Positions 1,794-23,639 of a stretch of DNA of 23,639 nucleotides are shown here, in pieces (position 1 is the stretch's first letter; every line of letters begins with the position of its first letter). The stretch covers positions 1-23,639 of the IMG/VR virus record IMGVR_UViG_3300044574_000009; one strand, 5' to 3'. The DNA comes from a virus. Position numbers and translations under genes: made by a program. The notes under the pieces are model-generated. The model did not search any database and had not been told where the DNA came from. It saw only the letters and a program-made list of their open reading frames with translations.

Positions 1794-1794
1794 A

Positions 1795-1940: not shown

Positions 1941-2057
1941 GAGCCAATCCAAGCGGAAGAGCCGGTGCAGGCTGAACTGCCCCGCGCTGCCGATATCGAC
2001 CCCACCAAGATCAGCCGCTCTGTGCTCACGCAAGACGGTTGGGTCTGCCCAGCGTAA
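1866..2057 (+). CDS. Small acidic Pro-rich virion-associated protein
   Basis: A 63-residue protein preceded by AAAGGAG at good spacing. The first 40 residues are Pro/Ala/Glu-rich and probably disordered; the end (IDPTKISRSVLTQDGWVCPA) looks like a short conserved motif. I recall similar small proteins just before the portal in podoviruses of Burkholderiales but cannot name a function. There is no membrane segment. It opens the head operon and is followed ten bases later by another small gene with its own Shine-Dalgarno. The 19-base segment encoding QPTDTTL is duplicated from its own leader. A head accessory role is inference from position. Confidence 0.6.
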   Translation: MAAKMPPQIPGDSPADAEQPTDTTLEPIQAEEPVQAELPRAADIDPTKISRSVLTQDGWVCPA

Positions 2058-2067
2058 GGAGCCGACC

Positions 2068-2325
2068 ATGTGCGGAGGATTCATCGGCAGTATTGCAAAG
2101 GGATTGGGGCTGGCCCACGATGCTCCGACCCAAGATCCAGCAGATGCAGCGTCTCAGGCAGCTGCATCGTCTCAGGCAGCTGCTGACACCAAAGCAACCC
2201 AGAGCGCAAACCTGAAACTGGCTTACCGTAACCGCCGCCGCTCTGCCAGTCTGCTGGCTACGGGCGCAGGTGACACCGGCATGGCGCAGGGCAAGACTAC
2301 CAGAAAATCTGTGCTGGGGGCCTGA
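2068..2325 (+). CDS. Small MCGG-type phage protein upstream of portal
   Basis: An 85-residue protein beginning MCGGFIGSIAKGLGL, followed by an Ala/Gln/Ser-rich linker with an 18-base tandem duplication, then a basic segment (YRNRRRRS-like: LAYRNRRRSASLLATGAGD) and the end TTRKSVLGA. The combination of a short Cys/Gly-rich N-terminus and a C-terminal R-x-x-LL/VLG motif resembles small proteins encoded beside portal genes in many podoviruses; their function is not established to my knowledge. TAAGGAG at 2056-2061 sets the start at 2068. The stop overlaps the portal start (TGATG), implying coupled translation. The hydrophobic N-terminus is too short to call a membrane anchor. Confidence 0.65.
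   Translation: MCGGFIGSIAKGLGLAHDAPTQDPADAASQAAASSQAAADTKATQSANLKLAYRNRRRSASLLATGAGDTGMAQGKTTRKSVLGA
2150..2183 (+). repeat. 18-base tandem duplication inside the MCGG-type gene
   Basis: CGTCTCAGGCAGCTGC occurs at 2150-2165 and 2168-2183, period 18, adding six residues to an Ala/Ser/Gln linker. In-frame and probably a slippage duplication. Confidence 0.8.
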
Positions 2326-3938
2326 TGGCTGCTGATCCAGTCAAGATCACCAAGCGGCTGGATGCCCTCAAGGCCAAGCGCTCGGGCTTTGAGTCCGACT
2401 GGCGCGATTGCTTTGAAATGACTTTCCCCGAGCGTGGCTCTGGCCTGTCGGGTGAGGTCATCGATAGCACCCAGGCACGCAGCAAGACCGCTGCCCGCCT
2501 TGATTCCACCGGTACCGATGCGAGTCGCATTCTGGCATCGGCGCTGATGTCGGGCATGACCCCTGCAAACTCCCGCTGGTTCGCCCTTGACGTGGGCAAT
2601 GAGTCGGACGAAGAGCGCAAGTGGCTCGACGATGCATCCGATACGATTTGGAAAAACATCCACGCCGCCAACTTTGACGCTGCCGCTTTCGAGTGCATGC
2701 TCGACGTCGTGCCAGCTGGCTGGTGCGTGCTGTTCACCGACATCAACCGGCATGCAGGCGGTGGCTATGCCTTCGAGCAGTGGCCAATCAGTGAATGCTT
2801 CATCGCCAGCACCCGCCAGGATGGCCGCGTCGATACCGTGTACCGCAAGTACGCAATGTCGGCGCTGCAGGCTGCGGAGACATTTGGAATTGAGAACCTG
2901 AGCAGCAAGTCACGCGACAAGGTGCTGAACAAGCCAGACGATTTGATCCAGTTCGTGCGTGTTGTGGAACCGCGCAAGGTGTACACCGCAGGGGCCAAAC
3001 TATCTCGCAACATGCCATTTGCCTCGTGCGATGTGGAGCTGGATGGCAAGCACCTGGTGCGTGAGCAAGGTTTTGAAGAGTTCCCGTGCTCTGTGCCGCG
3101 CTGGACGATCATCCCGCAAAGCCATTACGCCGTGGGGCCAGCGTTCCATGCACTACCCGACATGCTGGAGCTCACCGAACTGGTACGACTTGAGAAGGCC
3201 GCTGCTGATCTGGCCGTGTCCGGCATGTGGATAGCGGAAGACGATGGCGTGCTGAACCCCCGCACCGTGAAGGTGGGGCCGCGCAAGATCATCATTGCCA
3301 ACAGCGTGAACAGCATGAAGGAGCTCAAGAGCGGGGCCGACTTTAGAGTGTCGTTCACCATGAAGTCACAGCTGCAGGCGCAGATCCGCAAGACCTTGAT
3401 GGCCGACCAGCTGCAGCCGCAGGATAGCCCCGCCATGACAGCCACCGAAGTGCATGTGCGTGTGAACCTGATTCGCCAGCTGCTGGGCCCGGTGTATGGT
3501 CGCCTGCAGGTAGAATGGCTGCAAACCCTGATTGAGCGCTGTTTCGGTCTGGCGTTTCGCGCTGGTGTGCTGGGGCGACCACCGGAGTCTCTGTGGGCGC
3601 GTGACTTCCATGTGCGCTACATCAGCCCACTGGCCCGGGCGCAGCGCCTGGAGGATGTGACCGCCATGGATCGCATCGAGCAAGGCCTGATGCTCAAGGC
3701 GCAAATGAAGCCCGAGATTCTTGATGTGTACGACTGGGATGGTGCCGAAGAGCTTCGCAGTCAATTCCTTGGTGTACCCGGCAAGCTGATGCGCACCGAC
3801 AAAGAACTGGCCGCCATCCGTAAGGAGCGTGCTGACGCGCAGGCCCAGGCGCAGCAAAAAGATCAGTCCATAGCCATGGCGCAAGCTGCCAGCGGCAATG
3901 ATGCTGGTGCCAAGGTTATGGGCGCAATGGTGGCATGA
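2325..3938 (+). CDS. Portal / head-tail connector protein
   Basis: A 537-residue protein, the usual length of the T7 gp8-like head-to-tail connector family. Recognisable features are an N-terminal helical region with RLDALKAKRSGFESDWRDCFEMTFPERG, the segment TGTDASRILASALMSGMTPANSRWFALDV typical of podoviral connectors, a central LRLEKAAADLAVSGMW-type stretch, MTATEVHVRVNLIRQLLGPVYGRLQVEWLQ, and a Gln/Ala-rich coiled-coil tail (KELAAIRKERADAQAQAQQKD). Twelve copies would form the ring at the head vertex through which TerL pumps DNA and to which the tail attaches. The start overlaps the previous stop (TGATG) and its own stop overlaps the next start (ATGA). Assignment is strong from length, sequence pattern and neighbours. 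Confidence 0.9.
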   Translation: MAADPVKITKRLDALKAKRSGFESDWRDCFEMTFPERGSGLSGEVIDSTQARSKTAARLDSTGTDASRILASALMSGMTPANSRWFALDVGNESDEERKWLDDASDTIWKNIHAANFDAAAFECMLDVVPAGWCVLFTDINRHAGGGYAFEQWPISECFIASTRQDGRVDTVYRKYAMSALQAAETFGIENLSSKSRDKVLNKPDDLIQFVRVVEPRKVYTAGAKLSRNMPFASCDVELDGKHLVREQGFEEFPCSVPRWTIIPQSHYAVGPAFHALPDMLELTELVRLEKAAADLAVSGMWIAEDDGVLNPRTVKVGPRKIIIANSVNSMKELKSGADFRVSFTMKSQLQAQIRKTLMADQLQPQDSPAMTATEVHVRVNLIRQLLGPVYGRLQVEWLQTLIERCFGLAFRAGVLGRPPESLWARDFHVRYISPLARAQRLEDVTAMDRIEQGLMLKAQMKPEILDVYDWDGAEELRSQFLGVPGKLMRTDKELAAIRKERADAQAQAQQKDQSIAMAQAASGNDAGAKVMGAMVA

Positions 3939-4195
3939 CGCGCGGCACACCAGCACCGGCCATCACGCCGGAAATGTTCAAGGAGCTGTTCGAGGATCAC
4001 CCCACCGGGCGCATCGTCCTTGAGCACCTGATCGTCAGATTCACCCGCCCAGCGGTGACCGAAGGCGGCATTGATGCCGTGCTGAAAACCTACCTTCGCC
4101 AAGGCACGCGCATGCCGCTGGATTACATCGTCACCCAGATCAACCGCGCTCACGGTGTGGCAACAACCCAAGGAGAGCAAGATGTTCAAACGTAG
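3935..4195 (+). CDS. Bbp19-like small phage protein
   Basis: An 86-residue protein whose body (EMFKELFEDHPTGRIVLEHL, then VTEGGIDAVLKTYLRQGTRM, then IVTQINRAHG) fits the Bbp19-like family, named after a Bordetella phage BPP-1 protein: an F-x-x-L-F segment, a short turn with GR-x-VL, and a second helical region. The family is found between portal and scaffold/capsid genes in many podoviruses; its role is unknown, probably in head assembly. It begins in an ATGA overlap with the portal stop, so it is likely translated by coupling. Its last 14 bases overlap the scaffold start region. Family call is from memory of the pattern, not a search. Confidence 0.7.
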   Translation: MTRGTPAPAITPEMFKELFEDHPTGRIVLEHLIVRFTRPAVTEGGIDAVLKTYLRQGTRMPLDYIVTQINRAHGVATTQGEQDVQT

Positions 4196-5066
4196 ATTCC
4201 CATTGATGGATGGCACACCCGGCGCTGCCGGTGGTGGAGCTCCAGCCGGTGACGCTGGCGCACCTGCAGCCCCTGCAGCTGGTGGCGCACCTGCCCCAGC
4301 CGCTCCCGCTGGTGATGCTGGCGGCGCTCCCGCTGCTCCCTCAATCCTGTCCGGTGGCAAGCCTGCCGATGGTTCCGCGCCAGCTGCAGCCACTCCAAAC
4401 GACTGGATCCCTGAGAAGTTCCGCGTCATGAATGGCGATGCCATGGACATCGAGGCATCAGCCAAGAAGCTGGCAGAGTCCTACACTGGTCTGGAAAAGA
4501 AGGTGGGCTCTGGTGATGTGCCACCCAAGACCGCCGACGAATATGCGGTGGTGGTGCCGGATCAGTTCAAGGATGTGTGGTCAGAAGATGACCGCTTCAA
4601 GTCGTTTCGCACCGATGCGCTGGCCGCTGGCCTGACCCAGAAGCAGTTTGATTTTGTGATGGGCAAGTATTTCAACGTGGCGCCTGAGCTGGTGCAGGGT
4701 GGCCAGCAGGTGAGCGCCGACAAGGCCAGCGAAGAGCTGCGCACCACCTGGAAGACCGATACCGAGTTCAATGCCAATGTGCAGGATGCATTCAAGGCAT
4801 TCAGCGCCTATGCCGACCCAGCCGATCAGGCGCGCATTGACGAGATCGGCAACAGCCCGGTGGCGCTGCGCATTCTGGCCAAGATCGGCAAGGAAATGGG
4901 TGAGGCCGGTGGCATCCCTGCGGCCAATGCTTCAACCGGCGCGGATGACATTCAGGCCATTCTCAAGTCCGATGCGTACCTGAACCCCAAGCATGCAGAC
5001 CACAAGGCCACCAGCGCCAAGGTGCAGGCGTTCTATCAGAAGAAATTCGGCAATACGCCAGCCTGA
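4182..5066 (+). CDS. Capsid scaffold protein
   Basis: A 294-residue protein starting at the ATG at 4182, which has AAGGAG at 4170-4175; an upstream TTG in frame lacks a site. Residues about 10-72 are a low-complexity Ala/Gly/Pro linker with a near repeat (APAGDAGAPAAP, then APAGDAGGAPAAP). The rest is helical: WIPEKFRVMNGDAMDIEASAKKLAESYTGLEKKV, DEYAVVVPDQFKDVWSEDDR, KQFDFVMGKYFNVAPEL and a C-terminus rich in Lys/Ala (HADHKATSAKVQAFYQKKFG). This is the layout of phage scaffolding proteins of the T7 gp9 type, which direct capsid assembly and leave before DNA packaging. Location between portal and major capsid gene supports it. A rho-independent terminator follows 39 bases downstream. Confidence 0.8.
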   Translation: MFKRRFPLMDGTPGAAGGGAPAGDAGAPAAPAAGGAPAPAAPAGDAGGAPAAPSILSGGKPADGSAPAAATPNDWIPEKFRVMNGDAMDIEASAKKLAESYTGLEKKVGSGDVPPKTADEYAVVVPDQFKDVWSEDDRFKSFRTDALAAGLTQKQFDFVMGKYFNVAPELVQGGQQVSADKASEELRTTWKTDTEFNANVQDAFKAFSAYADPADQARIDEIGNSPVALRILAKIGKEMGEAGGIPAANASTGADDIQAILKSDAYLNPKHADHKATSAKVQAFYQKKFGNTPA

Positions 5067-5105
5067 TTGCAGTTGTCTCCTATGTAGGTGTGAGCAGCCC
5101 ACTTT

Positions 5106-5137
5106 GCCCCGAGAGGTTAGCGCTTCCCGGGGCTTTT
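5106..5137 (+). terminator. Rho-independent terminator after scaffold gene
   Basis: GCCCCG (5106-5111) pairs with CGGGGC (5128-5133). After one mismatch, GAGG (5113-5116) pairs with CTTC (5123-5126, one G-U). The loop is TTAGCG and the stem is followed by TTTT. It would stop or attenuate transcription between scaffold and capsid. Confidence 0.75.
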
Positions 5138-5155
5138 CCATTTCTGGGTCTACAA

Positions 5156-5171
5156 AGTCGGGAAGCCGACC
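5156..5171 (+). promoter_or_regulatory. 16-base hairpin element, copy 2 of 3
   Basis: Identical to copies at 1795-1810 and 22016-22031 (AGTCGGGAAGCCGACC). It lies 19 bases after the scaffold terminator's T-run and 154 bases upstream of the major capsid start, where a new promoter would be expected. Function is inferred. Confidence 0.6.
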
Positions 5172-5325
5172 GCGTACCGGCCGGATGATGCAGCGCAACG
5201 GCCTGGTGTGGCGACCAGATAACCGAAAAGCCAGCGACCGCATATCGCGCCGAAATGCAGTCAGAGATTGGGCCTGTTTCCGCAGACAACCCTGCCAAAG
5301 GCGTTGAAACTTTTATGAGGTTGAA

Positions 5326-6201
5326 ATGAACAACACAATCACCGCTGCGTTCGTTACGCAGTTCCATGATTCGTTTGTCGCCGCTGCGGAACAGAAAGAA
5401 TCACGGCTGGAGTCAACGGTCAACAATCGCGGGATGATCGTCGGATCGTCCTTCACCGCCAACGACATGGGCATCATCGAGGCATCGCAAGTGACTAACC
5501 GTTACGGCGATACCGAGTGGACTATCCCTGACGCTGGAACCCGCCAAGCCTTGATGGCTGACTACGATGTGGCCATCCCCATCGATCGCTCCGACTTGGC
5601 CAAGTTGATGGCAAACCCCCAGGGCGACTACCTGCAGCGCGCTCTGTCTGCCATGCAGCGCAAGAAAGACCGCGTGATTTATGACGCTGCCCGTGGCGCC
5701 GCACTGCGCAAGACGGATGAGTCTGGATCCTTTGCTGCCGTGAACTTGTCCGGTGGCCAGATCATTGCCGCTGGTGGCACTGGCATGACCAAGGCGAAGC
5801 TGATCACTGCGCGCAAGCAGTTCCGCACCAATGAAGCCGACGAGCACAACGGTGAGGAAATCTTCCTGACCTATGACGCTGGCATGTTGGAGGACGTGCT
5901 GTCTGACACCCAGCTGACTAGCGCCGACTACATGGCCGTGAAGATGCTCCAAGAGGGCGACATCAGCGGCAAGTGGTTGGGCTTCAAGTGGGTGCCTTAT
6001 GAAAACTTGTTTGGCACATCCACACGCACCGCCATCGCTTACGCGAAGTCTGGTGTTCACATCGGTACGGGTGAAAACATCGTTACCGACATTGGCCCAC
6101 GCCGTGACAAGCGCAACATGATCCAGATCTATGTTGCCATGTCTGTCGGTTCTGTTCGTGTGAACGAGCAGAAGGTCGTAACCATCGACTACGTTGCATA
6201 A
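5326..6201 (+). CDS. Major capsid protein
   Basis: A 291-residue protein resembling the HK97-fold capsid proteins of several podoviruses. Visible landmarks: MNNTITAAFVTQFHDSFVAAAEQKESRLESTV at the N-terminus, IPDAGTRQALMADYDVAIPIDRSDLAKLMANPQGDYLQRALSAMQRKKDRVIYDAARG in the middle, TKAKLITARKQFRTNEADEHNGEEIFL, and the C-terminal block RNMIQIYVAMSVGSVRVNEQKVVTIDYV. The alternating beta strands and the long helical spine fit the fold. No protease-processed delta domain is evident, consistent with a separate scaffold protein. The gene is flanked by terminators together with the next gene, as expected for a product needed in hundreds of copies. The ATG follows GAGG at five bases. Confidence comes from position plus pattern. 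Confidence 0.85.
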   Translation: MNNTITAAFVTQFHDSFVAAAEQKESRLESTVNNRGMIVGSSFTANDMGIIEASQVTNRYGDTEWTIPDAGTRQALMADYDVAIPIDRSDLAKLMANPQGDYLQRALSAMQRKKDRVIYDAARGAALRKTDESGSFAAVNLSGGQIIAAGGTGMTKAKLITARKQFRTNEADEHNGEEIFLTYDAGMLEDVLSDTQLTSADYMAVKMLQEGDISGKWLGFKWVPYENLFGTSTRTAIAYAKSGVHIGTGENIVTDIGPRRDKRNMIQIYVAMSVGSVRVNEQKVVTIDYVA

Positions 6202-6211
6202 GGGGTAAATC

Positions 6212-6667
6212 ATGGCTGAAGTTAAATCAACCCAAACCACAGCAGTGGCCGCTGGCTCTAAGCTGCTCCCAGCTTCTGACGGTGGCCGCAAGCGCCTGTT
6301 CTTTGCTGAGTACGTGCAGGGTGTTGCCACCCAGGCAATCAGCGACACGATCTACCTGGGCGACTTGCCCAAGGGCGCGCGCATCTGCAAGGACTGGCTG
6401 CTGAACTGCTCTGCAGGTACGGCAGCCAGCACGCTGCACATCGGCATCCGAGGTCGGGCCACCGGTACGGCAATCGCTGCCAGCGGCATTGCTGCATCTA
6501 CCGACATTGCAGCTGCTGGCTACAAGGATGCCAATACCGGCTCTTTGCTGGCCGCTGGCCTGCAGTACACCACGCTGGAAGCGGTGGAAGTGTATGCAAC
6601 CATCAACGTGGCAGTGCTGGCGGCAAACCAGAAGATCACGATTGAAGGTTCTTACGTCCAAGACTGA
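6212..6667 (+). CDS. Capsid-associated structural protein (possible decoration protein)
   Basis: A 151-residue protein, Ala/Gly/Thr-rich and predicted mostly beta, starting ten bases after the capsid stop. Segments such as RRLFFAEYVQG-like (KRLFFAEYVQGVATQAISDTI), DLPKGARICKDWLLNCSAG and VYATINVAVLAANQKITIEGSYVQD suggest a compact beta-sandwich with no signal peptide or membrane span. I do not recognise a named family. Because it is co-transcribed with the capsid gene and ends at a terminator, it is probably a virion protein needed in high copy, such as a decoration or head-stabilising protein. That role is inference from genome position only. Confidence 0.65.
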   Translation: MAEVKSTQTTAVAAGSKLLPASDGGRKRLFFAEYVQGVATQAISDTIYLGDLPKGARICKDWLLNCSAGTAASTLHIGIRGRATGTAIAASGIAASTDIAAAGYKDANTGSLLAAGLQYTTLEAVEVYATINVAVLAANQKITIEGSYVQD

Positions 6668-6686
6668 CGCACCCGCGTAAGCGTCC

Positions 6687-6721
6687 AAGCCGGGTTCGTC
6701 GAAAGGCGTTCCCGGCTTTTT
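6687..6721 (+). terminator. Rho-independent terminator after capsid cassette
   Basis: AAGCCGGG (6687-6694) pairs perfectly with CCCGGCTT (6711-6718) around a 16-base loop, followed by TTT. A smaller hairpin, GACGC/GCGTC at 6666-6670 and 6681-6685, precedes it. The tail genes begin 17 bases later with no separate promoter that I can see, so readthrough is likely partial. Confidence 0.8.
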
Positions 6722-6737
6722 CATAGAAGGAAAGCCA

Positions 6738-7319
6738 GTGGCCACCAAAGTATTGATCTGCTCCAACGCACTGCTGCTGCTAGGTGCCAAGACCATCAAC
6801 AGCCTGGACGAGGGCTCTGACCGCGCCAGCCTTGCTGCCAATCTGTACGACAGCCTGCGCGATGACATGCTGCGCAGCCACCCATGGAATTGCGCTGTGA
6901 AGCGGGTGATTCTGGCCCCTGATACTGAAACCCCGGCATTCGACTACGGCGCGCAGTTCACCCTACCAGCTGACTGGCTCAAGACCATCAGTGTGGGCGC
7001 TGAGGGGTATGAGGTGGACTACAAGCACGAGTCCGGCAAGATCATGGCCAATGGCACCACGCTGCCACTGCGCTACATCTTCCGCAATGACAACGAAGCG
7101 ACGTGGGATGCCATGCTGGTGCGGGCCATGGAGCTCAAGATGGCCAGCGAAATGGCCTATCCCATCACCGGATCGGCCAGCATGGCGGATGCCACGTTCC
7201 AGAAACTGGAGCGCCACATGAAGCAGGCGCGCTCAGTGGATGGCCAGGACGATCCGCCCCAGACCTTTGGCGACTTCCCTTTGCTGAGCTCCCGATTCGG
7301 CGGGCGGGCGGTGTACTGA
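6738..7319 (+). CDS. Tail tubular protein A-like (gp11-like)
   Basis: A 193-residue protein beginning with GTG at 6738, preceded by GAAGGAAA. The N-terminal half carries the signature of T7 gp11-like tail tubular A proteins: ALLLLGAKTINSLDEGSDRASLAANLYDSLRDDMLRSHPWNCAVKR, with the L-R-x-HPW motif at about residues 46-50, then LPADWLKTISV. The second half is helical (VRAMELKMASEMAYPITGSA, QKLERHMKQARSVDGQ). In T7, twelve copies form the ring between portal and nozzle, acting as gatekeeper of the tail. Length equals T7 gp11 (about 196). It precedes a gp12-like gene, completing the expected pair. Assignment is strong. Confidence 0.88.
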   Translation: MATKVLICSNALLLLGAKTINSLDEGSDRASLAANLYDSLRDDMLRSHPWNCAVKRVILAPDTETPAFDYGAQFTLPADWLKTISVGAEGYEVDYKHESGKIMANGTTLPLRYIFRNDNEATWDAMLVRAMELKMASEMAYPITGSASMADATFQKLERHMKQARSVDGQDDPPQTFGDFPLLSSRFGGRAVY

Positions 7320-7320
7320 C

Positions 7321-9261
7321 ATGCCACGCACCACCGTCTTACAAACCAATTTCACCGCGGGCGAGATCAGCCCCAAGCTGTACGGCCGCGTCGATGTGGC
7401 CCGGTACCAGAACGGCGCAAAGAAGATGCGCGACACCATCCCCCAGGTGTACGGCGGGGCCAAGCGCCGCGATGGCTCACTGTTTGTGCGTGAGGTCAAG
7501 ACCAGCGCCAAGCAGACCCGGCTGATCCCGTTCATCTACAACGAGAACACCGCCTACATGCTGGAGTTCGGAGACCTGTACATGCGGGTCTATAAGGATG
7601 GTGTGGTGCTGGGTGCGCCGTATGAAGTCGTCACCCCATTCTCCGAAACGATCCTGTTCGACCTTGATTTCACCCAAGGCGCGGACACCATGTTCATCTT
7701 TCATGAGACGCTTCAGATCCGCAGGCTGCGCAGGTTTGGTGATACCAGCTGGACACTGGACATTGCACCATTCACAGAAACCCCGTTTGAGGAACCCGGC
7801 ACTTACCCCGCTGCAGCCTTGACACCCAGCGCGGCCACTCCGGTGGGTGGTGCTTGCACGCTGACCGCTGGCGCGTCTGTCTTTGCGGCTGGAGATATTG
7901 GCAGCAGCGTAAAGATCAATGGCGGGATCGTGAAGATAACCGGCTACACCAGCGGAACAAGTGTCACGGGTTCGATCAAACAGGAACTGACCAGCACCGC
8001 GGCAGCACCCACCGATGCCTGGAGCCTGCATGCACCGGCCTGGTCAGCATCACGCGGCTACCCACGCACTGGCACACTGTACGAGCAGCGCCTGGCGGTG
8101 GGCGGCTCCCCCACATTCCCGCAAACGATCTGGGGCAGTGCCACGGCGGCCTATCTGGATTTCACGATGGGCGTGAACGATGACGATGCGTTCGCCTTCA
8201 CCATGGCCAGCGATCAGGTCAACCCGATTCAATACCTTGCCAGCAGCCGCGCACTGGTGGCTTTCACGTCAGGCGGTGAGTTCACCGTGGCCGGTGGTTT
8301 GGAAAAGCCATTGGCACCGACCAATGCCCAGGTGCGACAGCGCAGCAATTACGGCTGCTCCCGCGTGCGGCCGGTGCGCATCCGTGATGCTGAGATCTTC
8401 ATCCAGCGTGCAGGTTCCAAGGTACGCAGCTTTGCCTACAACGTCACCAACGACGACTGGACAGCCCCAGACATTGCCGTGATGGCTGAGCACCTGACCG
8501 CTGGCGGCATTGTGGATATTGCGTGGCAGCAGGAGCCCACCTCAATCATCTGGCTGGTGCGTGCTGATGGCGTGCTGGTGTCGGTCACCTATGACAAGGA
8601 TCAGGACGTGGTGGGCTGGGCAGCGCACACCGGCTTCGATGGGGCGGTGGAGTCCGTGGCAACCATCCCCGATGTGGACAGCGATCAGCTTTGGCTGGTG
8701 GTGCGGCGCACGATCAACGGGGCAACCAAGCGTTATGTGGAGCGCTTCTTTCCCGATGTGCTGCTGGACAGTGCTGTGCTGTCCACAGCCGGTAGCCCTG
8801 CCGCCGTTTGGACTGGGTTGGCCCACCTGGAAGGTAAGGCGGTGGATGTGGTTGGCGATGACGCTTATGTGGGCAACTACACGGTGGTCGGTGGCCAAGT
8901 CACCATTGGCAAGGCGGTGACCGTGGCAAAGATTGGCCTTCCATTTGAGAACCGCATCGAGCTGCTAGACCCCGAAGTGCAGACCGGCATGGGAAGCGCC
9001 AGCGGCAACTACATGCGCACCAGCGAAGTGACTGCCCGGTTCTTTGAAACCACTGGGGCACTTGTGAATGATCAGCCGTTGGTGTTCCGCAGGTTCGGCA
9101 GCAATGACACGGTGCAGACCCCACAACTTTTCAGCGGTGTGACCCGCATCGAAAACCTTGGGTGGGAGCGCGGCGTGTCGGATCTGGTGATCAAGCAGGA
9201 CAAACCCATGCCATTCCACCTGCTGGCAGTCACCCGCAAATTCACGGTCAACGATGGCTAA
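7321..9261 (+). CDS. Tail tubular protein B-like nozzle/tail protein
   Basis: A 646-residue beta-rich protein. The N-terminus NFTAGEISPKLYGRVDVARYQNGAKKMRDTIPQVYGGAKRRDGSLFV is the hallmark of a large podoviral tail protein family that replaces or resembles T7 gp12. Other typical blocks are MLEFGDLYMRVYKDGV, GYPRTGTLYEQRLAVGGSPTFPQTIWGS, and VNPIQYLASSRALVAFTSGGEFTV. T7-like nozzle proteins form the tip of the stubby tail and hold the fibres. Length is shorter than T7 gp12 (about 790), as common in this group. The ATG at 7321 is one base after the previous stop. The 3' end overlaps the acetyltransferase gene by eight bases. Confidence 0.85.
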   Translation: MPRTTVLQTNFTAGEISPKLYGRVDVARYQNGAKKMRDTIPQVYGGAKRRDGSLFVREVKTSAKQTRLIPFIYNENTAYMLEFGDLYMRVYKDGVVLGAPYEVVTPFSETILFDLDFTQGADTMFIFHETLQIRRLRRFGDTSWTLDIAPFTETPFEEPGTYPAAALTPSAATPVGGACTLTAGASVFAAGDIGSSVKINGGIVKITGYTSGTSVTGSIKQELTSTAAAPTDAWSLHAPAWSASRGYPRTGTLYEQRLAVGGSPTFPQTIWGSATAAYLDFTMGVNDDDAFAFTMASDQVNPIQYLASSRALVAFTSGGEFTVAGGLEKPLAPTNAQVRQRSNYGCSRVRPVRIRDAEIFIQRAGSKVRSFAYNVTNDDWTAPDIAVMAEHLTAGGIVDIAWQQEPTSIIWLVRADGVLVSVTYDKDQDVVGWAAHTGFDGAVESVATIPDVDSDQLWLVVRRTINGATKRYVERFFPDVLLDSAVLSTAGSPAAVWTGLAHLEGKAVDVVGDDAYVGNYTVVGGQVTIGKAVTVAKIGLPFENRIELLDPEVQTGMGSASGNYMRTSEVTARFFETTGALVNDQPLVFRRFGSNDTVQTPQLFSGVTRIENLGWERGVSDLVIKQDKPMPFHLLAVTRKFTVNDG

Positions 9262-9708: not shown

Positions 9709-10155
9709 ATGTGCATCAGTGCAATCGTATTGGCGATTTCGGCGGGTTTGTCTATCATGGGGCAGATAAAGCAAGGGAAGGCTCAGAAGAAGGCCGCAAA
9801 CACTCAGGCGCGTGGGCAGGATCTGGCTGCAGCGCAAAACCAAGAAGCAGCGAAGCAAGAGGCAGGCAATATCCGAAAAGCCGGTAAACGGCAGGCAGGC
9901 GCATCCCGCGCGGCACTGGCCGGGGCTGGCATCGTGGTGGACTCGGGCTCTGGAATAAACATCAATGAAGACATTTACCGGGGCAGTGAGTCTGATGCGT
10001 ACAACACGCTGCTGACCGGTGAGCGACAGGCCAGCTCACTCAATCGCAGCGCATCCCAAAGCAGGGCAGCTGGAGACAACGCAGTAACGGGTAGTTTGTT
10101 GGGTGCGGCATCCACAGCGGCCCGTAGCTATGCAGGCTGGAAGGGTGTGAAATAA
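9709..10155 (+). CDS. Internal virion protein, gp14-like
   Basis: A 148-residue protein starting at the ATG at 9709 after GGGGGAA. The N-terminus CISAIVLAISAGLSIMGQI is a single hydrophobic helix, followed by a Gln/Ala/Lys-rich coiled coil (QGKAQKKAANTQARGQDLAAAQNQEAAKQEAGNIRK region, residues about 22-60) and then ASRAALAGAGIVVDSGSG, a motif common to podoviral internal core proteins. The end is Ser/Ala-rich with a Gly-Ala hydrophobic patch (SLLGAASTAARSY). In T7, gp14 is ejected and forms the outer-membrane pore of the DNA channel; the membrane-active N-terminus and gene order (before two large internal proteins) support that role. The stop overlaps the next start (TAATG). Confidence 0.75.
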   Translation: MCISAIVLAISAGLSIMGQIKQGKAQKKAANTQARGQDLAAAQNQEAAKQEAGNIRKAGKRQAGASRAALAGAGIVVDSGSGININEDIYRGSESDAYNTLLTGERQASSLNRSASQSRAAGDNAVTGSLLGAASTAARSYAGWKGVK

Positions 10156-12200
10156 TGCCGCGCATACCCGCAGGAGAACAATTCGGCCAGGTGGTGACAC
10201 GTCCGGGCCCGGTGGTTAATGTCAACCCTGACGCTTATGGTGCTGGCGTTGGCCGTGCCATTGAGCAGGCTGGCAACATCGGCATGCAAATAGCAGGGCA
10301 AGACATTGCCCAAGCCAATGCCGAGGCCAAGCAGCTGGCGAGAGAGCAGGAGGCTGAGGCCAAACAGTTCGCCAATGAAGCCAAGCGTGTCAAGGCTTTA
10401 ACAGCCACCGCGCAGGTGCAGGGTGGGCTGGCTACCTTGCATGACCAGCTGAGCGCGGATCTGGACAGCGGCGCGATTGATAAGGCCGATGTGGGATCCG
10501 TATGGGCTGAGCGCAGTACCAAGCTGGTAAATGAGTCGCTGGCCAATGTGGATCCACAGCACCGCGAGCTGGTGAATGCAACCCTGCTCAATGACGTTGG
10601 GCGCTATGGTCAGTCGATCAGCAAGATGGTGGTGCAGCGGGACAAGAAAGACATCATGGCTGGCGGGCTCTCCTACTTTGAGAGCATGCAGCGCCATGCA
10701 GCACGCGGCCCCAAGCAGGCAGACGAGGCGATTGCCAACGTCAGCGCATTCTGGAAAGCCACCGGCCCCATGGCTGGCGAAGACCCGGCAGCGGCATCCC
10801 TGCGGGTGCAGCGGTTCACCGAGAACGTGCGCACCCACCAAGCCACCGGGCTGGTGAATGCCGACCCAGCAGCAGCACTCAAGGCCCTGAAAAACCCCAA
10901 CTACTTGCCAGAGCTGGACCCGGATAAGCGCAGCGCATTGATCAACACCGCCGATGCCATGGTGCTGCGCAACCAGCAGCGCGGCGCATTGCAGGCTGAG
11001 GCAGCGGCCCGGGCACAGACCAAGGCATGGGAGGGAGCGCAGGCCGTGTTTCAGGCCGGCAAGATGCCAACACCAGAATACGCGGCGCAGCTCTCCCAGA
11101 CATTCAAGGGCACGCCTTACGCGGTGGCGCTCAAGTCCATGCTGGCCGATGGCCCTGCCAATGTCGCATTTGTTGCGCAGCCGGTGCAAGCGCAGGCTGC
11201 AGGGCTTGCCCAGCTGCAAAACAAACTCAACACTGGCGGAGCAACTCCCGAAGACATCAAGAATTACGAGCGCCTGGACAAAGCGCACAAGGCCACACTG
11301 GCAGACATCAAGGAAGACCCGTACAAGGCGGCATCCGAGCGCGGCGTGCTGACCTCATTGGATCCGCTGAGCCTGGACATTGCGCAGCTTCCCGCACAGC
11401 TGGCTAAGCGTGCAGTGCAGGCCAACACCGTGAGCACTTGGGCGGGGCGTGAGGTCTCATTGTTCCGCCCTGACGAAGCCGCCAAGGTTGCCAACGTGCT
11501 GCAGGCCATGCCACCCAAAGACCGCGCCGGGGCGCTGGCGGGCATCAGCAAGGCCATGACACCGGGGCAGATGCGAGCCTTTGGCCAGCAGATGGGCTCC
11601 AAAGATGAAACGCTGGCAGCTGCTGCATTGTTGTCGGCCAGTGGTGCAACCACCACCAGCGGCCGCCAGGTGGCGGAAATTGCGCTGGCTGGTGCGGATG
11701 CCATGAAGGAAGACCGGGTAAAGTTTCCCGCAGGCCAGAGCAAGACCACTATCCGCGCAGAGATCGACAAAGCCACGCGGGGCGCATACCTGAGTGAAGA
11801 TGCTCAACGCGCAGCGGGTGACGCGGCCATGGCGGTGTATGCCGGGTTGGTGGCTGAGGGCCAGTCCGGGGATGTTGGCCAAGCGGTGCGGTTGACTACT
11901 GGCGGGGTGATGGAGATCAATGGTGCCAAGTTCGTCAAACCCTACGGCTGGCAAGACTCCCAGGTACTCAAGGCCCTGCGCGATGTGGATGCCCCCAAGA
12001 TGGCAGCACTTGCGGGTGGTAAATCTCTGGTAATTGGTGGAAAGCCTGTACCACCCGAAGAGGTGGCGAAATACATGCCAGGTGCCCAGCTGGGGCCATC
12101 GCGCAAGGATGGGCACTACACGGTGAGCATCGGCGGCCGCTTGGTAACTGGCGAGGATGGAAAGCCATTCCTGTTACCATTGGCGGGAGGGGCAAAGTAA
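10155..12200 (+). CDS. Internal/ejection protein, gp15-like
   Basis: A 681-residue, strongly helical and Ala/Gln/Lys-rich protein without signal peptide. The start MPRIPAGEQFGQVVTRPGPVVNVNPDAYGAGVGRAIEQAG is followed by a long coiled coil (residues about 50-85, QANAEAKQLAREQEAEAKQFANEAKR). Similar opening sequences mark a family of podoviral internal virion proteins. No lysozyme or transglycosylase motif is visible. By order it corresponds to T7 gp15, part of the tube that spans the periplasm during DNA ejection. It overlaps both neighbours by one base or a few bases (TAATG), so the three internal proteins are translated together. The functional call is from gene order and composition; sequence similarity to T7 gp15 itself is not evident. 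Confidence 0.7.
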   Translation: MPRIPAGEQFGQVVTRPGPVVNVNPDAYGAGVGRAIEQAGNIGMQIAGQDIAQANAEAKQLAREQEAEAKQFANEAKRVKALTATAQVQGGLATLHDQLSADLDSGAIDKADVGSVWAERSTKLVNESLANVDPQHRELVNATLLNDVGRYGQSISKMVVQRDKKDIMAGGLSYFESMQRHAARGPKQADEAIANVSAFWKATGPMAGEDPAAASLRVQRFTENVRTHQATGLVNADPAAALKALKNPNYLPELDPDKRSALINTADAMVLRNQQRGALQAEAAARAQTKAWEGAQAVFQAGKMPTPEYAAQLSQTFKGTPYAVALKSMLADGPANVAFVAQPVQAQAAGLAQLQNKLNTGGATPEDIKNYERLDKAHKATLADIKEDPYKAASERGVLTSLDPLSLDIAQLPAQLAKRAVQANTVSTWAGREVSLFRPDEAAKVANVLQAMPPKDRAGALAGISKAMTPGQMRAFGQQMGSKDETLAAAALLSASGATTTSGRQVAEIALAGADAMKEDRVKFPAGQSKTTIRAEIDKATRGAYLSEDAQRAAGDAAMAVYAGLVAEGQSGDVGQAVRLTTGGVMEINGAKFVKPYGWQDSQVLKALRDVDAPKMAALAGGKSLVIGGKPVPPEEVAKYMPGAQLGPSRKDGHYTVSIGGRLVTGEDGKPFLLPLAGGAK

Positions 12201-17392: not shown

Positions 17393-17617
17393 ATGAACGG
17401 AATTAGGATTGACCGATTAAAAGAGGTCTTCAACTATTGCCCAGAAACTGGCACGCTGACATGGCGGTCAAAGGTAAACAGGCGTATTGTCATCGGGATT
17501 ATCGCCGGGTGCAAGGGACAGAATGGCTACCTGCATTTAAGCGTTAATGGGGTTAGGCTGCTCGCCCATCGTGTTGTCTCTGCTAAATCAAAATATCACA
17601 TGGGAGCAGTTCAATGA
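17393..17617 (+). pseudogene. Truncated HNH homing endonuclease remnant
   Basis: A 74-residue frame. MNGIRIDRLKEVFNYCPETG, TLTWRSKVNRRIVIGIIAGCKGQNGYLHLSVNGVRLLAHRVV is the standard first half of a phage HNH endonuclease (compare RLLQLFTYDSLTGAFCWR in the gene at 324). The frame stops right after the first conserved histidine (AHR), and the D-H-x-x-G and N-x-x-NL parts of the active site are missing, replaced by SAKSKYHMGAVQ. It therefore cannot be an active nuclease. The segment is visibly richer in A and T than its surroundings, fitting a foreign insertion decayed by deletion. Its stop overlaps the next start (ATGA), and the sequence GGGAG at 17602-17606 serves that gene. Confidence 0.75.
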
Positions 17618-20088
17618 AGCCAAATTGCATTACAGCGGTGACCAAAGCGGCAGGCCGCGCACTGACCAGCGCAGAGATCAAGGGCATCGATGACCGCATG
17701 AATGAGACCATGCGCAGGCTGGCCCGATCTGATCCGCACTGGCAGAGCTACCCACCAGACGCGCGGGTACAGATCGCCGCACAGCAGGCCATGGCAGACA
17801 TGAAAGCTCAGTCTGCGCGCAAGGTTGAGAACGCTCAGCGCCAGGTGCTTAAGACGCTGGAAACCCAGCAGCGCATCACAGACCTGCGGCAGAACATGGG
17901 TGTGGGCCAGAGCCGCGCGCTGGTGGAGGATTTGAACAATACCCACCTGTACACCGATGGCATCAAGAAACAGTATTCCAGCGGGTTGATGGATCTGGTG
18001 GAGGCCGCAGGTAGTGGGCAAGGCGCAGGCGTAGGGCGCAAGATGCTGCAGTTCCTGTTTGATGCTAAAAACCCCGGCATGACCAAAGACTTGGCGGCCG
18101 AAATTTTCTCCAACGGCGGCGGCAAGTCGGGCAACAAGGTAGCGCAGGCGGGTGCCAAAGCGTGGCTGCAGACCATTGAATCCATGCGCCAGCGGTTCAA
18201 TGCGGCGGGTGGCGATGTTGGAAAACTGGACTACGGCTATCTGCCTCAACCTCATGACAGCGCACGGATCCGCGCAGCCGGGGCCGAATCTTGGGCACAG
18301 AAGACCATGGGCCTGCTTGACCGCAAGCAGTACCTACACACTGATGGCAAAGTAATGAACGATGTCGAGGTGCTGGATTTACTACGCGGCGCGTGGGATA
18401 CCTTGTCCACCGATGGCCTGAACAAGACAGAGCCGGGGCAGTTCAAAGGCACCGGAGCCAAGGCCAATCGCGGCAGTGAGTCGAGGGTGCTGCATTTCAA
18501 GGACGGTGACAGCTACCTGCAATACAACGCGGCCTATGGCATGAGCTCGATGTATGACGCGATGATCGGGCACATTGGCGGCATGTCCCGCAACATCGGG
18601 CTGGTGGAGCGTATGGGCCCCAACCCAAACAATCAATTCAGGCTGCAGCTGGATCTGGCAGAGCGCACCGATGGGAAGGTGATGCGCTCCTTCGGCAACA
18701 AGCCGCAGGCCTATTGGGACATCATCAACGGAACCAGCGGGACACCAGAAAGCGCCCGCCTTGCCAGTATTGGCCAGCACATCCGCAACGTGCAGACCTT
18801 TGGCAAACTGGCCGGAGCGGTGATCTCCAGCATTACCGACATGGGCACCATGATGGTGACGACCGGCTACAACAAGCTGTCATATTGGGATCTGCTGACC
18901 AACACCATGACCGCAGGCGGCAAGGATGCCAAGGAGTTTGCCAACATGCACGGCATGATCGCCGAGAGCATGATCACCGACCTGAACCGCTGGCAGGGCG
19001 AGAACATTGCAAACAACTGGTCAGGGCGGCTGGCCAACAGCACCATGAAGTTGTCGCTTATGAACGCCTGGACTGACACCATGCGCCGGGGTTTCAGCAT
19101 GACCATGATGGCCGGTCTAGGTAAGCTCTCGAAAACCGACTGGGGCAAGCTGTCGGAATGGGATCGCAGCCACCTTGCACGCAAGGGCATCACGGAGGCC
19201 GACTGGCAAGTGGTGAATGCTGCGCATCTCACCGACTACCGTGGGCAGGGCATGCTGACACCGGAGGCGATTGCATCCAGTGGCCACCCGGAGGCCGCGC
19301 AGGTTACAGCCAAGGTGCTGGGCTTTATCACAGACGAATCCGAATACGCGGTAATAAACCCGGATCTGGCCACGCGCGCCATTCAGACCGGGGGCGGGCA
19401 GCAGGCGGGCACCGGTACCGGAGAGTTGGCACGGCTGGTCATGCAATTCAAGTCATTCCCCATTGCGATGATCTCGCGGCACTGGCGCAGGATGCTGGAA
19501 GGCGGGGCTTCGATGGATGGCGCGCCCGCTCTGGCTAATAAGGCGGCATACACTACGGCCCTGCTGCTCACCACCACGGCATTGGGTGCTGTGGCATTCC
19601 AGACCAAGCAAATGATTCAGGGCAAAGACCCGGTGGACATGACTACGCCGAAGTTCTGGACGCGGGCCATTGCGCAGGGCGGCGGTGCTGGTTTCTTGGG
19701 CGACATGATTCTGGGTGACACCACGCAAGACCGCAGCACCATGGACACCATGGGCCGCATGTTGATGGGCCCGAGCTTTGGCAGTCTGGCTGACTTCTAT
19801 GAACTGACCAAGGGCAACATTGACGAGGCGATAGCAGGCAAGGACACCCACGCCGGGGCTGAGGCGTTGCGGCTTGCCCGCAGCCACACGCCGTATGTCA
19901 ATCTCTGGTACGCAAAGGCCGCGTCCGATCACATGCTGCTGCACGCACTGCAGGAGAATCTCTCACCCGGATACCTTGACCGGCAAACGACCAAGGCGTA
20001 CAAGGACTGGCAACAAGAATTCTGGTGGCAGCCAGGGCAGGCCGCACCAGATCGTGCGCCAAAATTGAGTGCCATAGGAGGGCGATGA
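17614..20088 (+). CDS. Large internal/ejection-type protein
   Basis: An 824-residue, mainly helical protein starting at the ATG at 17614 with GGGAG seven bases before it. Blocks include RALTSAEIKGIDDRMNETMRRLAR, a Gln/Arg coiled coil near residues 60-100, NIGLVERMGPNPNNQFRLQL, ANNWSGRLANSTMKLSLMNAWTDTMRRGFSMTMMAGLG and ELARLVMQFKSFPIAMISRHWRRMLEG. Near 645-665 there is a likely membrane helix (TTALLLTTTALGAVAFQTKQ). The pattern QFKSFP-x-x-M/I-x-x-HWRR recurs in large podoviral virion proteins thought to be ejected with DNA. No lytic transglycosylase motif was found. By length and position before the terminase, it could be the largest internal protein, the true functional counterpart of T7 gp16. 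Function is inferred. Confidence 0.65.
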   Translation: MKPNCITAVTKAAGRALTSAEIKGIDDRMNETMRRLARSDPHWQSYPPDARVQIAAQQAMADMKAQSARKVENAQRQVLKTLETQQRITDLRQNMGVGQSRALVEDLNNTHLYTDGIKKQYSSGLMDLVEAAGSGQGAGVGRKMLQFLFDAKNPGMTKDLAAEIFSNGGGKSGNKVAQAGAKAWLQTIESMRQRFNAAGGDVGKLDYGYLPQPHDSARIRAAGAESWAQKTMGLLDRKQYLHTDGKVMNDVEVLDLLRGAWDTLSTDGLNKTEPGQFKGTGAKANRGSESRVLHFKDGDSYLQYNAAYGMSSMYDAMIGHIGGMSRNIGLVERMGPNPNNQFRLQLDLAERTDGKVMRSFGNKPQAYWDIINGTSGTPESARLASIGQHIRNVQTFGKLAGAVISSITDMGTMMVTTGYNKLSYWDLLTNTMTAGGKDAKEFANMHGMIAESMITDLNRWQGENIANNWSGRLANSTMKLSLMNAWTDTMRRGFSMTMMAGLGKLSKTDWGKLSEWDRSHLARKGITEADWQVVNAAHLTDYRGQGMLTPEAIASSGHPEAAQVTAKVLGFITDESEYAVINPDLATRAIQTGGGQQAGTGTGELARLVMQFKSFPIAMISRHWRRMLEGGASMDGAPALANKAAYTTALLLTTTALGAVAFQTKQMIQGKDPVDMTTPKFWTRAIAQGGGAGFLGDMILGDTTQDRSTMDTMGRMLMGPSFGSLADFYELTKGNIDEAIAGKDTHAGAEALRLARSHTPYVNLWYAKAASDHMLLHALQENLSPGYLDRQTTKAYKDWQQEFWWQPGQAAPDRAPKLSAIGGR

Positions 20089-20089
20089 A

Positions 20090-20473
20090 ATGCGGCAGGA
20101 TCAATACGAGCGGCTGCAGTCCTTGCATGAGGAATTGACGGATGTATTCCTGACCGAGGCCGACCACAAGCGCTGGCCCGGGTATGGGCTGGAGCCCGCA
20201 TCCATCGATGCCCAGACCCGAGGGGATCGCTACTGGTCAAAGAAAAACGCCGTGGCCACCATCGTGCTGATGACGCGGATATCCAACCTGACCGACATTG
20301 TTCAGCGCACCAGCTCAGCCGGTACATATCACCCCGAAGCTGTGGACACTGCGCAGGACGAGCTCGATGCCCAGGTGCGCGCGGCCGAGAAAGAAGCGGC
20401 CAAACTGCTCAAGACCCTGCAGTCCGGAACGTCAAAAGCCGCCTTTGACGCAAAGGTGCATGGCAAGCGCTGA
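20090..20473 (+). CDS. Terminase small subunit-like protein
   Basis: A 127-residue, highly charged helical protein preceded by GGAGGG, with the ATG one base after the upstream stop. MRQDQYERLQSLHEELTDVFLTEADHKRWPGYG, a central QTRGDRYWSKKNAVATIVLMTRISNLTDIV, and a C-terminal coiled coil (DELDAQVRAAEKEAAKLLKTLQSGTSKAAFDAKV) match the general plan of podoviral small terminase subunits (T7 gp18 is about 89 residues; related phages are longer). It would bind concatemer DNA and regulate TerL. It overlaps the TerL start by 14 bases, the usual pairing of the two subunits. Sequence of TerS proteins diverges fast, so the call depends largely on context. Confidence 0.75.
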   Translation: MRQDQYERLQSLHEELTDVFLTEADHKRWPGYGLEPASIDAQTRGDRYWSKKNAVATIVLMTRISNLTDIVQRTSSAGTYHPEAVDTAQDELDAQVRAAEKEAAKLLKTLQSGTSKAAFDAKVHGKR

Positions 20474-22094
20474 TGTTTCCTTCCTGACTTTCTTCCTGAT
20501 GTGGGCGAAGGTCATGCGCTGGGATGTGCCCATGCTGCACGTGCGTGTCTGCCAGTGGCTGGAGACGTGCGAAGATCCTGTGCGCGTGCTGATGGTGTTT
20601 CGCGGGGCGGCGAAGTCCACCCTGTACGCGGTTTACAAGGCGTGGAAGCTGTACCGCAACAGGCACAACCGTTCTCTGGTGTGGGCCGCTGATGACAAGC
20701 TGGCCACCAAGCTGACGCGCGACACCCTCAACGTGTTGCACAGGCACCCGCTCACGCAGGGCATGCTGCCACCCAAGCCCGGGGCAAAGTCGTTCTGGGT
20801 TACTGGTGCGCAGGATGCACGAAACGCCAGCATAGAGGCCGTTGGCGTGAATGGCAACAGCACAGGCAGCCGCGCGGATGCTATCGATTTTGATGACGTT
20901 GAGGTGCCCAAAAACATCAAGACCCCCGAGGCCCGCCAGAACCTACGGCTCAAGATCGAGGAAACCACGCACATCGCCGTGCCTGGTGCACAGAAGACCT
21001 ACATCGGCACGCCGCACACCCACGATTCGATTTACACCGAACAGATTGAAGGGGGCGCGTCCGTGCTCAAGATTCCGCTTTTCTCCCATGTGGTTCGGTA
21101 TGAAGACACCGCAGTCAAAACCCGGTACCGGTTCAATTTCACACCCGGCCCCGATGGGCTTTATGTGCTGGCAGGCATTGGCAAGTTCGCCCGGATGATG
21201 CGCGAGGGGGCTGACTTCAAGGTGCAGGGCGATGAAGTGGTGTTCTACAAGCCGCCTGCCATGGTGCTCGATATTTGCGCTGGCAATGCATGGCCAGAGC
21301 GATTCAACCGCGTGGAGGTGGAAATGCGACGCAAGGAAACCCGTACCCTGAACGGGTGGGATAGCCAGTACCAGCTGGAAGCCAAGCCGGTAAGCGAAAC
21401 CCGCCTAGACCCTAACAAGATGGTGCTGTATGAAGTGGAGCCGGTGGTGCGCTTTGCCAACGGTGAAACCCTGCTGATGCTGGGCAATGTGCGCCTGGTG
21501 GGTGTGAAGGCCCGGTGGGACTGCTCACTTGGGAAAATCAATTCGGATGCATCGGCAGTGGCTGTGGTGTTCACCGATGATGCTGGTCGGCTGTACTGGC
21601 ACCGCGCCATCGCCTTGACCGGTGAGCTGGAGGAATTCGGGCGGGATGGCAAGACGCTGGTGGGCGGCCAGATCCGGCAGCTGATCGACTTGCTGGCACC
21701 ACTGCAGGTTCCGAGCATCGTGATTGAAACCAATGGCCCGGGCGGCTTTGTGCCGGCCATTGCGCGTAAGCACCTCAAGCGCCACGGCATCAGCGTGACT
21801 GAGGATTTCAGCAGCGAGAACAAGCAAAAACGCATCTTGGATGCATTCGAGGCACCGCTTTCGTCTGGTTTTTTGTGGGCACACACATCGGTGACGGATG
21901 GCCCTGCCTTTGATCAGATGATCCAGTTCAACCCGCTGTCAAAGAATCAGGCAGACGACTATCTTGATTCCGGGGCTGGCGCGATCTCTGAAACTCCGGT
22001 GCGAATTGGCAGGATAGTCGGGAAGCCGACCGAGGATCGCGGCGACGATTGGCGTCCATCAGCGGGTGTTCATGAAGTAACTTTGGAAATGTGA
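20460..22094 (+). CDS. Terminase large subunit (ATPase-nuclease)
   Basis: A 544-residue protein from the ATG at 20460. The ATPase domain has Walker A at 47-54 (FRGAAKST), Walker B at 141-147 (AIDFDDVE region) and the coupling motif IGTPHTHDSIY at 182-192. The nuclease domain has the RNase H-like acids: D354 (ARWDCSLGKINSDASA), E423 (IVIETNG) and D500/D503 (NQADDYLDSGAGAI). This is a complete T7 gp19-like motor that pumps DNA into the procapsid through the portal and cuts the concatemer. The upstream site AAAGG is close and weak, so expression probably depends on coupling with TerS. The last about 25 residues are encoded by a segment containing the third 16-base hairpin element. Confidence 0.92.
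   Translation: MASADVSFLTFFLMWAKVMRWDVPMLHVRVCQWLETCEDPVRVLMVFRGAAKSTLYAVYKAWKLYRNRHNRSLVWAADDKLATKLTRDTLNVLHRHPLTQGMLPPKPGAKSFWVTGAQDARNASIEAVGVNGNSTGSRADAIDFDDVEVPKNIKTPEARQNLRLKIEETTHIAVPGAQKTYIGTPHTHDSIYTEQIEGGASVLKIPLFSHVVRYEDTAVKTRYRFNFTPGPDGLYVLAGIGKFARMMREGADFKVQGDEVVFYKPPAMVLDICAGNAWPERFNRVEVEMRRKETRTLNGWDSQYQLEAKPVSETRLDPNKMVLYEVEPVVRFANGETLLMLGNVRLVGVKARWDCSLGKINSDASAVAVVFTDDAGRLYWHRAIALTGELEEFGRDGKTLVGGQIRQLIDLLAPLQVPSIVIETNGPGGFVPAIARKHLKRHGISVTEDFSSENKQKRILDAFEAPLSSGFLWAHTSVTDGPAFDQMIQFNPLSKNQADDYLDSGAGAISETPVRIGRIVGKPTEDRGDDWRPSAGVHEVTLEM
22016..22031 (+). promoter_or_regulatory. 16-base hairpin element, copy 3 of 3
   Basis: AGTCGGGAAGCCGACC, the same as 1795-1810 and 5156-5171, here within the 3' end of the TerL gene (encoding VGKPT) and 94 bases upstream of the tail fibre start. 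Same orientation as the other two. Consistent with a regulatory site for the fibre gene. Confidence 0.55.
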
Positions 22095-22125: not shown

Positions 22126-23639
22126 GTGACCGTTTCATCCCAGACCCCCATCAATCGAAGCACCGGAAATGGGGTGACAACCGTCTTCCCCTACACCTTC
22201 AAAATCATTGCGGCCGCAGATATTGAGGTCACCGTCGATGATGTGGTGAAGACCTTGAATGTGGACTACACAGTGTCCGGCACTGGCGCTGATGCTGGCG
22301 GTAATGTCACCATGACCGTGGCACCGGCCGACCTTTCCAGCGTGGTGCGCAGGCGCAGCATGGCGCTGGTGCGTACAACCGACTATCAGGATCAGGGTGA
22401 GCTGCCAGCTGCCACGCTAGACGGTGATCTGGATTCGGCTGTACTCATGATCCAGCAGGTGGATGAACAGATCGGGCGGGCTCTGACTTTGCCGTTCGGC
22501 GTTGTTGGCGTATCGACTGAACTGCCAACGCCAGTTATCAATGGCTTGCTGGGGTGGAACAGCGCAGGCACCGCCATCGCGCATTACACCGGAGCAGCCT
22601 CTAGCCTGGTTAGCGCTGCGATGGCTCCAGTAGTTGCCGGATCTGATCTGGATACAGCAAGAACTGCCATGGGTGTGGCCAAGTCTGGCGCAAACACTGA
22701 TATCACAAGTCTGGGGGCGGTCACCGGTGTAACCGCATCCAATGGCGACAACTCATTGAAGCTGGCCACTACGGCTTTTGTTGCAGCCAATGCGCGATCT
22801 GCTGGCCTCTTCTACAAAATCTCCACCACCTCAGTGGCCTTCACCAAAACCGGAGCCAACAGCGCCAGCATCAAGGCGGGCACCATCGTCGATGTTTTGG
22901 GTATGTTAGTCACCTTTGCCACTGCCACAGCCATCGTCATGCCCACGCTCACCGCTGGCACCGACTACGCCATTTACGCCTGCGCCGATGACACCGTTCG
23001 GGCTGACTCCAGCTTCACCAACCCCACCGGCTACACCACGGCCGACAGCCGACTGATTGGCGGCTTTCATTACGGGCTGGTGGCCAGCGGCACCACGCTG
23101 GCGGGCGGCTCATTCAACACTGCGGGCAGCGTGCAAACGGGCGGCATGGTGTGGACGCAGGGGCAGGTGGACGACATTGCGGGCATCAACAAATACAGCC
23201 TGTGGGATTTGTACTGGCGTGCCAACGTGAGCGACCTGCGCGCGCAAAAGGGTTTTGTGCTGACGGACGCGGGCAACTGGGTAGCCATCTACTTTGCCAG
23301 CACCGACTGCGACACCAACGGACTGAGCAAGTACAACACCGATGTGGCCAGCGGCACCGTGCTGCCAAAAATCCCCACTACCATGGGCGGCAACGGCACC
23401 CTGACCTATGCCGACTACAACTGGTGGCGTGCCAGTGAACATGCCCGCGCCTACGGTGCCCGCCTGTTGACCGATGCCGAAGCCAACATCGCATTCTTTG
23501 GCGTGACAGAAAACCAGTCATTGGGCGGCGCTGCCAGCACCATCCCGCTGACCACCCGCGCAGCAGGCTACACCAGCAAATACGGCGTGGAGCAGGCCAC
23601 TGGCCATCATTGGGCTTGGGGTGACGATAGCTCGGGCAC
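22126..23639 (+). CDS. Tail fibre with DGR-target-like lectin domain (3' end cut by window)
   Basis: The frame begins at GTG 22126, with GAGG eight bases earlier, and stays open to the window edge (504 residues plus two bases). Residues 1-125 match the T7 gp17-type virion-anchoring domain (INRSTGNGVTTVFPYTFKI, DYTVSGTG, ATLDGDLDSAVLMIQQVDEQIGRALTLP). Residues about 200-224 contain NGDNSLKLATTAFVAANA, a common fibre-shaft motif. Residues about 345-504 form a C-type-lectin / formylglycine-generating-enzyme-like domain: ASEHARAYGARLLTDAEA, then TSKYGVEQATGHHWAWGDD, equivalent to the G-K-R-L-x-T-x-A-E and GL-x-x-x-x-GN-x-W-x-W patterns of DGR target proteins. In such proteins the variable residues lie about 25-90 residues further on, outside this window. 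Role: host receptor binding. Confidence 0.85.
   Translation, partial: MTVSSQTPINRSTGNGVTTVFPYTFKIIAAADIEVTVDDVVKTLNVDYTVSGTGADAGGNVTMTVAPADLSSVVRRRSMALVRTTDYQDQGELPAATLDGDLDSAVLMIQQVDEQIGRALTLPFGVVGVSTELPTPVINGLLGWNSAGTAIAHYTGAASSLVSAAMAPVVAGSDLDTARTAMGVAKSGANTDITSLGAVTGVTASNGDNSLKLATTAFVAANARSAGLFYKISTTSVAFTKTGANSASIKAGTIVDVLGMLVTFATATAIVMPTLTAGTDYAIYACADDTVRADSSFTNPTGYTTADSRLIGGFHYGLVASGTTLAGGSFNTAGSVQTGGMVWTQGQVDDIAGINKYSLWDLYWRANVSDLRAQKGFVLTDAGNWVAIYFASTDCDTNGLSKYNTDVASGTVLPKIPTTMGGNGTLTYADYNWWRASEHARAYGARLLTDAEANIAFFGVTENQSLGGAASTIPLTTRAAGYTSKYGVEQATGHHWAWGDDSSG

Follow-up and report, generated by a model that had tools for sequence, protein, structure and literature searches.

Does the fibre gene at the end of this viral contig encode a receptor-binding tip that the phage can mutate by means of a diversity-generating retroelement (DGR), and where did that tip come from? 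The window, that is, the whole stretch of DNA analysed, is a contig of 23,639 bases classed as linear. Its last open reading frame (ORF; 22126 to 23639, + strand) begins with GTG, is read for 504 residues and is still open, without a stop codon, at the 3′ contig end. The original prediction had likened the C-terminus of this ORF to the lectin domain of DGR targets, quoting the blocks NWWRASEHARAYGARLLTDAEA and YTSKYGVEQATGHHWAWGDDSS, both of which were found in the ORF, and the likeness was confirmed by homology to Mtd far beyond chance. In a phmmer comparison with the PDB, residues 226 to 503 matched residues 54 to 314 of the 381 residues of BPP-1 Mtd with an E-value of about 5e-48 (entries 1yu0-1yu4 and 2iou), and phrog_11262 (393 positions) matched the fibre with E=3.8e-67, the match ending at position 324. 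The Mtd second, beta-sandwich domain (residues 238 to 337; 22837 to 23136, +) was identified by PF21916 (mtd_2nd, E=1.6e-23), and is followed by the C-type-lectin domain (23137 to 23639, +), which is cut by the contig end and was delimited by the PDB matches, by alignment with complete relatives and by the continuation seen in a sister contig, L003. The C-type-lectin fold is common to many proteins outside DGRs, so that an ordinary formylglycine-enzyme-like or other lectin-type fibre domain unrelated to DGRs could have been expected here. The match, however, is specific to Mtd along its full length, second domain included, and no formylglycine-enzyme family was found in the fibre by Pfam at E<=0.1; these Mtd-specific matches rule such a domain out, leaving it a negligible probability. 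For the truncated head, AlphaFold modelled the lectin half poorly (mean pLDDT 55), and the assignment therefore rests on homology in sequence to Mtd of known structure, by which the head is Mtd, the founding DGR target, and not a generic lectin domain.

Since the matches end at Mtd residue 314 of 381 and phrog_11262 position 324 of 393, the last 65 to 70 residues or so, the whole variable part, are absent from the read. The variable repeat (VR) is expected about 75 nt beyond the last base, in keeping with the prediction that the window ends just short of it. No match to Mtd_N (PF18454), the N-terminal domain of BPP-1 Mtd, was found in the fibre by Pfam, and a T7-type anchor stands in its place; a scan of 38 Mtd homologues detected Mtd_N in only 6, so that this domain is no defining mark of the family.

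That the fibre carries a T7-type virion anchor had also been predicted, and this was borne out by domain, profile and structure comparisons. The anchor (22126 to 22515, +; residues 1 to about 125 or 130) matched PF03906 with E=5.5e-5, its 23.3 bits lying just below the curated cut-off of 25.2, and phrog_1640 with E=1e-37, and a profile search matched Dpo31 (E=1e-33). Its AlphaFold model resembled the N-terminal domain of T7 gp17 (7boz/7ey9; Foldseek E 1e-4 to 3e-5, TM 0.6-0.7) as well as other podophage fibres, Carin-1 (8ck1) among them. Between the two matched domains lies a linker or short fibre shaft, without a Pfam family, that joins anchor to head (22516 to 22800, +).

The genes upstream are those of a podophage. 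Directly before the fibre gene is the terminase large subunit (20298 to 22094, +; phrog_38, E=1e-70; T7 terminase nuclease domain PF22530, E=1e-6), whose true start is probably downstream of the listed TTG. An internal virion protein (17614 to 20088, +; phrog_684, E=4e-226) is 38% identical over its full length to that of Burkholderia phage BcepC6B, a similarity that places the window phage with the BcepC6B/phiV10-like podophages. Judged by eye, small ORFs at 17393 to 17617 and about 330 to 986, amid phage genes, resemble HNH-type endonuclease genes or pieces of such genes. Three copies of AGTCGGGAAGCCGACC, with the short inverted repeat GTCGG/CCGAC, were also seen (1793 to 1831, 5154 to 5192 and 22014 to 22052), the third inside the terminase ORF; they are possibly a regulatory element, or due to chance.

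Since the podophage group to which the upstream genes belong otherwise bears non-Mtd heads, and since VR and template repeat (TR) copies do break assemblies, the joining of anchor and head could in principle be a chimera between a podophage contig and the Mtd gene of another phage. The sister podophage L003, however, shares both the gene order and the fusion. Over the 4.5 kb before the fibre gene its DNA is 88.5% identical to that of the window (in amino acids, 98% for the terminase and 94% for the anchor), and divergence is similar on either side of the junction, with DNA identities of 87% for the anchor and 84% for both linker and head. As the linker, too, keeps 84% identity to L003 across its length, the fusion cannot be put down to assembly. 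This anchor type is fused to Mtd in five contigs (the window, L003, L008, L046 and L078), and L008, L046 and L078 show a fusion of the same type independently; the anchors of L046 and L078 are just 31-34% identical to that of the window, and these are thus probably separate fusions. An assembly chimera is accordingly most improbable.

Whether a DGR lies behind this gene was addressed in relatives, drawn from over 90 Mtd loci obtained by IMG/VR scans. Among heads with downstream sequence, the three nearest (L002, L004 and L005; 86-90% amino acid identity over the head) are all followed directly by Avd, a TR and a reverse transcriptase (RT), the RT of L004 being cut by the contig end. Avd was recognised as bAvd (PF22296) in L004 and L005 and as a homologue by tblastn in L002. 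The RTs of these cassettes match PF00078 and carry the motifs YMDD and IGNLTSQ, YMDD being found in L002 and L005 and also in L046 and L078. The VR/TR pairs of L002, L004 and L005 (107 nt) have 9 of 10, 5 of 6 and 10 of 14 mismatches at TR adenines. Of the T7-anchored Mtd fibres, L046 and L078 are the two with further sequence behind them (L008 has just 16 nt past its stop codon), and both have complete cassettes, with 6 of 6 and 19 of 19 mismatches at TR adenines, respectively. Over the non-redundant relatives 619 of 664 VR/TR differences fell at TR adenines, adenine making up 22% of TR bases. A hairpin with a GAAA loop, a structure required for retrohoming in BPP-1 (PMC3240598), follows the stop codon immediately in L002, L004, L005 and L046. 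In three example pairs of nearly identical heads taken from separate contigs, VR changes affected 19 of 30, 15 of 25 and 16 of 29 TR-adenine positions, compared with 1 of 91, 0 of 92 and 0 of 83 other positions; VRs of near-identical heads thus differ almost only where the TR has adenine, indicating recent DGR activity in the Mtd family.

The evidence closest to the window comes from L003, which runs 122 nt past the point where the window stops and ends inside the VR, with 48 nt of it visible. All 4 differences between this partial VR and the TR of L004, its best match among the three TRs compared, are at TR adenines (hypergeometric P=0.001). Against the TR of L002, 4 of 5 differences were at adenines, and against that of L005, a TR that has itself lost some adenines to other bases, 2 of 6. 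No VR/TR-like repeat pair was found inside the window, which ends before the VR, and no RT was found among its fibre-side gene matches (Pfam, PHROG). An exact scan with the last bases of the window gave no contig that continues it, a scan with the conserved TR core returned only three contigs already known, and a scan of host genomes for prophages gave just distant relatives (a Herbaspirillum MAG, a Deltaproteobacteria MAG and Parvibaculum). By hand count, about 11 contig ends fell within 550 nt near the VR, against about 5.6 expected from downstream bins, an enrichment too weak to serve as evidence.

Taken together, these data make it very likely that the window fibre combines a T7-type anchor and an Mtd head whose tip is varied by a downstream DGR of the BPP-1 type. 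The anchor would attach the fibre to the podophage tail, and the Mtd head would present its C-type-lectin binding face to the receptor. The last 110 or so coding bases of the fibre would form the VR, and Avd, TR and RT downstream would copy the template with errors at adenines; the mutated copy, written into the 3′ end of the gene, would let the phage vary its own receptor specificity. Because the window stops short of the VR, we infer the cassette, its activity and the resulting change in tropism, and receptor switching by this phage is proposed by analogy with BPP-1. The presence of the RT and its cassette is itself probable, its expected place lying beyond the window. A true Mtd head could also stand without a working retroelement, having been acquired without the cassette or having lost it, and would then be a fixed receptor-binding domain. 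Of the 76 Mtd loci that extend 1.5 kb or more downstream, 20 have no detectable RT, making loss a realistic alternative. The record of Marinomonas P12026 has Mtd without an annotated RT, and remnants follow Mtd without a complete cassette in L006 (5046 to 5111), a 63%-identical head that keeps only a piece of RT, in L086 (1130 to 1403; short Avd and RT pieces), and in L045 (11082 to 11318) and L064 (3826 to 4137), which keep Avd only. These remnants represent DGR decay in progress. Such a loss is nevertheless an unlikely state for the window phage, given that the cassette is present behind 3 of 3 nearest heads and 2 of 2 T7-anchored Mtd fibres with downstream DNA, and that the L003 VR departs from the TR of a relative at adenines only.

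Several other features of the relatives were recorded. In L088 (VR 10008 to 10132, TR 10557 to 10681) the TR holds 8 adenines in 125 bases, compared with 20 to 32 in the other TRs examined, and at many mismatches adenine is in the VR and not in the TR; the pattern resembles that of a template that was itself mutated, whether by self-homing or through an exchange of VR and TR in assembly. The TRs of L005 (2843 to 2949) and L004 (4031 to 4137) differ at only four positions, each of which is an adenine in L004 (changed to C, T, T and G), again a sign that a template can undergo its own mutagenesis, or else that sequence passed from VR to TR. Second copies of the Mtd 3′ end lie close to the main gene in L074 (2234 to 2490 and 3363 to 3619) and L076 (1 to 223 and 1130 to 1352), repeats of 223 to 257 nt that may reflect a pair of targets or duplication of a single one. 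Upstream of the T7-anchored fibre of L078, a protein of 2453 residues (91 to 7452) with ART-PolyVal and PBECR3 nuclease domains is probably of the polyvalent kind that enters the cell along with the genome.

The head appears to be foreign to the podophage lineage. In about 34 related podophage contigs (L114-L150) this anchor type is found at or near a homologous terminase, with neither Mtd nor an RT near the fibre, and most podophages of the window's group bear other heads on the same anchor. Since no other podophage of this terminase and anchor group was found with Mtd or a near-fibre RT, the cassette is not standard in the lineage. In the contigs with the closest heads (L002, L004 and L005) the N-terminus of the fibre is of another kind, and the gene upstream codes for the central tail fibre J (phrog_31), a siphophage setting. 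The window head is 90% identical in amino acids to that of L005, compared with 87% to that of its sister L003, and the last 120 nt of the window are 96% identical in DNA to L005, compared with 92% to L003. That the closest heads are in siphophages, while podophage kin bear others, indicates that a DGR-target head was grafted by recombination between phage types. From these identities, the simplest account would be that the head was exchanged between phage types, with the cassette moving afterwards or together with it, and we infer that a head from a siphophage-type source was joined by recombination to an existing podophage anchor. On balance, somewhat better than even support can be given to the fuller proposal, in which head and retroelement moved recently, by intragenic recombination, from a siphophage with a J-type tail to the T7-type anchor of an otherwise fixed-head podophage lineage. 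If so, a single genetic exchange would give a phage of fixed tropism a self-mutating receptor-binding tip.

That recombination could fuse new N-terminal domains to a hypervariable C-terminus was put forward by Roux et al., in whose work DGR targets are described, in general terms, as modular (PMC8144416); the window and L003, set against L002, L004 and L005, offer a concrete candidate for head exchange across tail types. The mechanism is already known from BPP-1, and what is new, modestly, is that a T7-type anchor and Mtd are naturally fused in one protein, together with the evidence for a move of the head between siphophages and podophages.

Among known systems BPP-1 is the reference. The window fibre shares its Mtd second and lectin domains, at 42% amino acid identity by tblastn, and the relatives share the order mtd(VR)-avd-TR-RT, the GC-rich VR end, the adenine-specific TR/VR differences and the GAAA-loop hairpin after the VR. 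At its N-terminus BPP-1 Mtd bears a beta-prism domain of its own, whereas the window head has a T7-type anchor instead. BPP-1 carries that type of anchor on another protein, Bbp9, encoded upstream (phrog_1640, E=5e-30), and anchor and head form one polypeptide in the window; a separate anchor gene adjoins mtd in L040, L060, L091, L202 and others as well. The siphophage contigs share the head and, among them, a complete cassette with nearly the same TR, but differ in the N-terminal domain and in having J rather than terminase upstream. L046 and L078, like L003 and L008, share the fusion of a T7-type anchor to Mtd. The same arrangement, anchor and Mtd in one protein, was engineered in T7 as gp17-Mtd chimaeras, which were reported as not infective on Escherichia coli (PMC7077284; record LR745708); those were man-made, whereas the window fusion is natural and shows that a T7-type anchor can carry an Mtd head.
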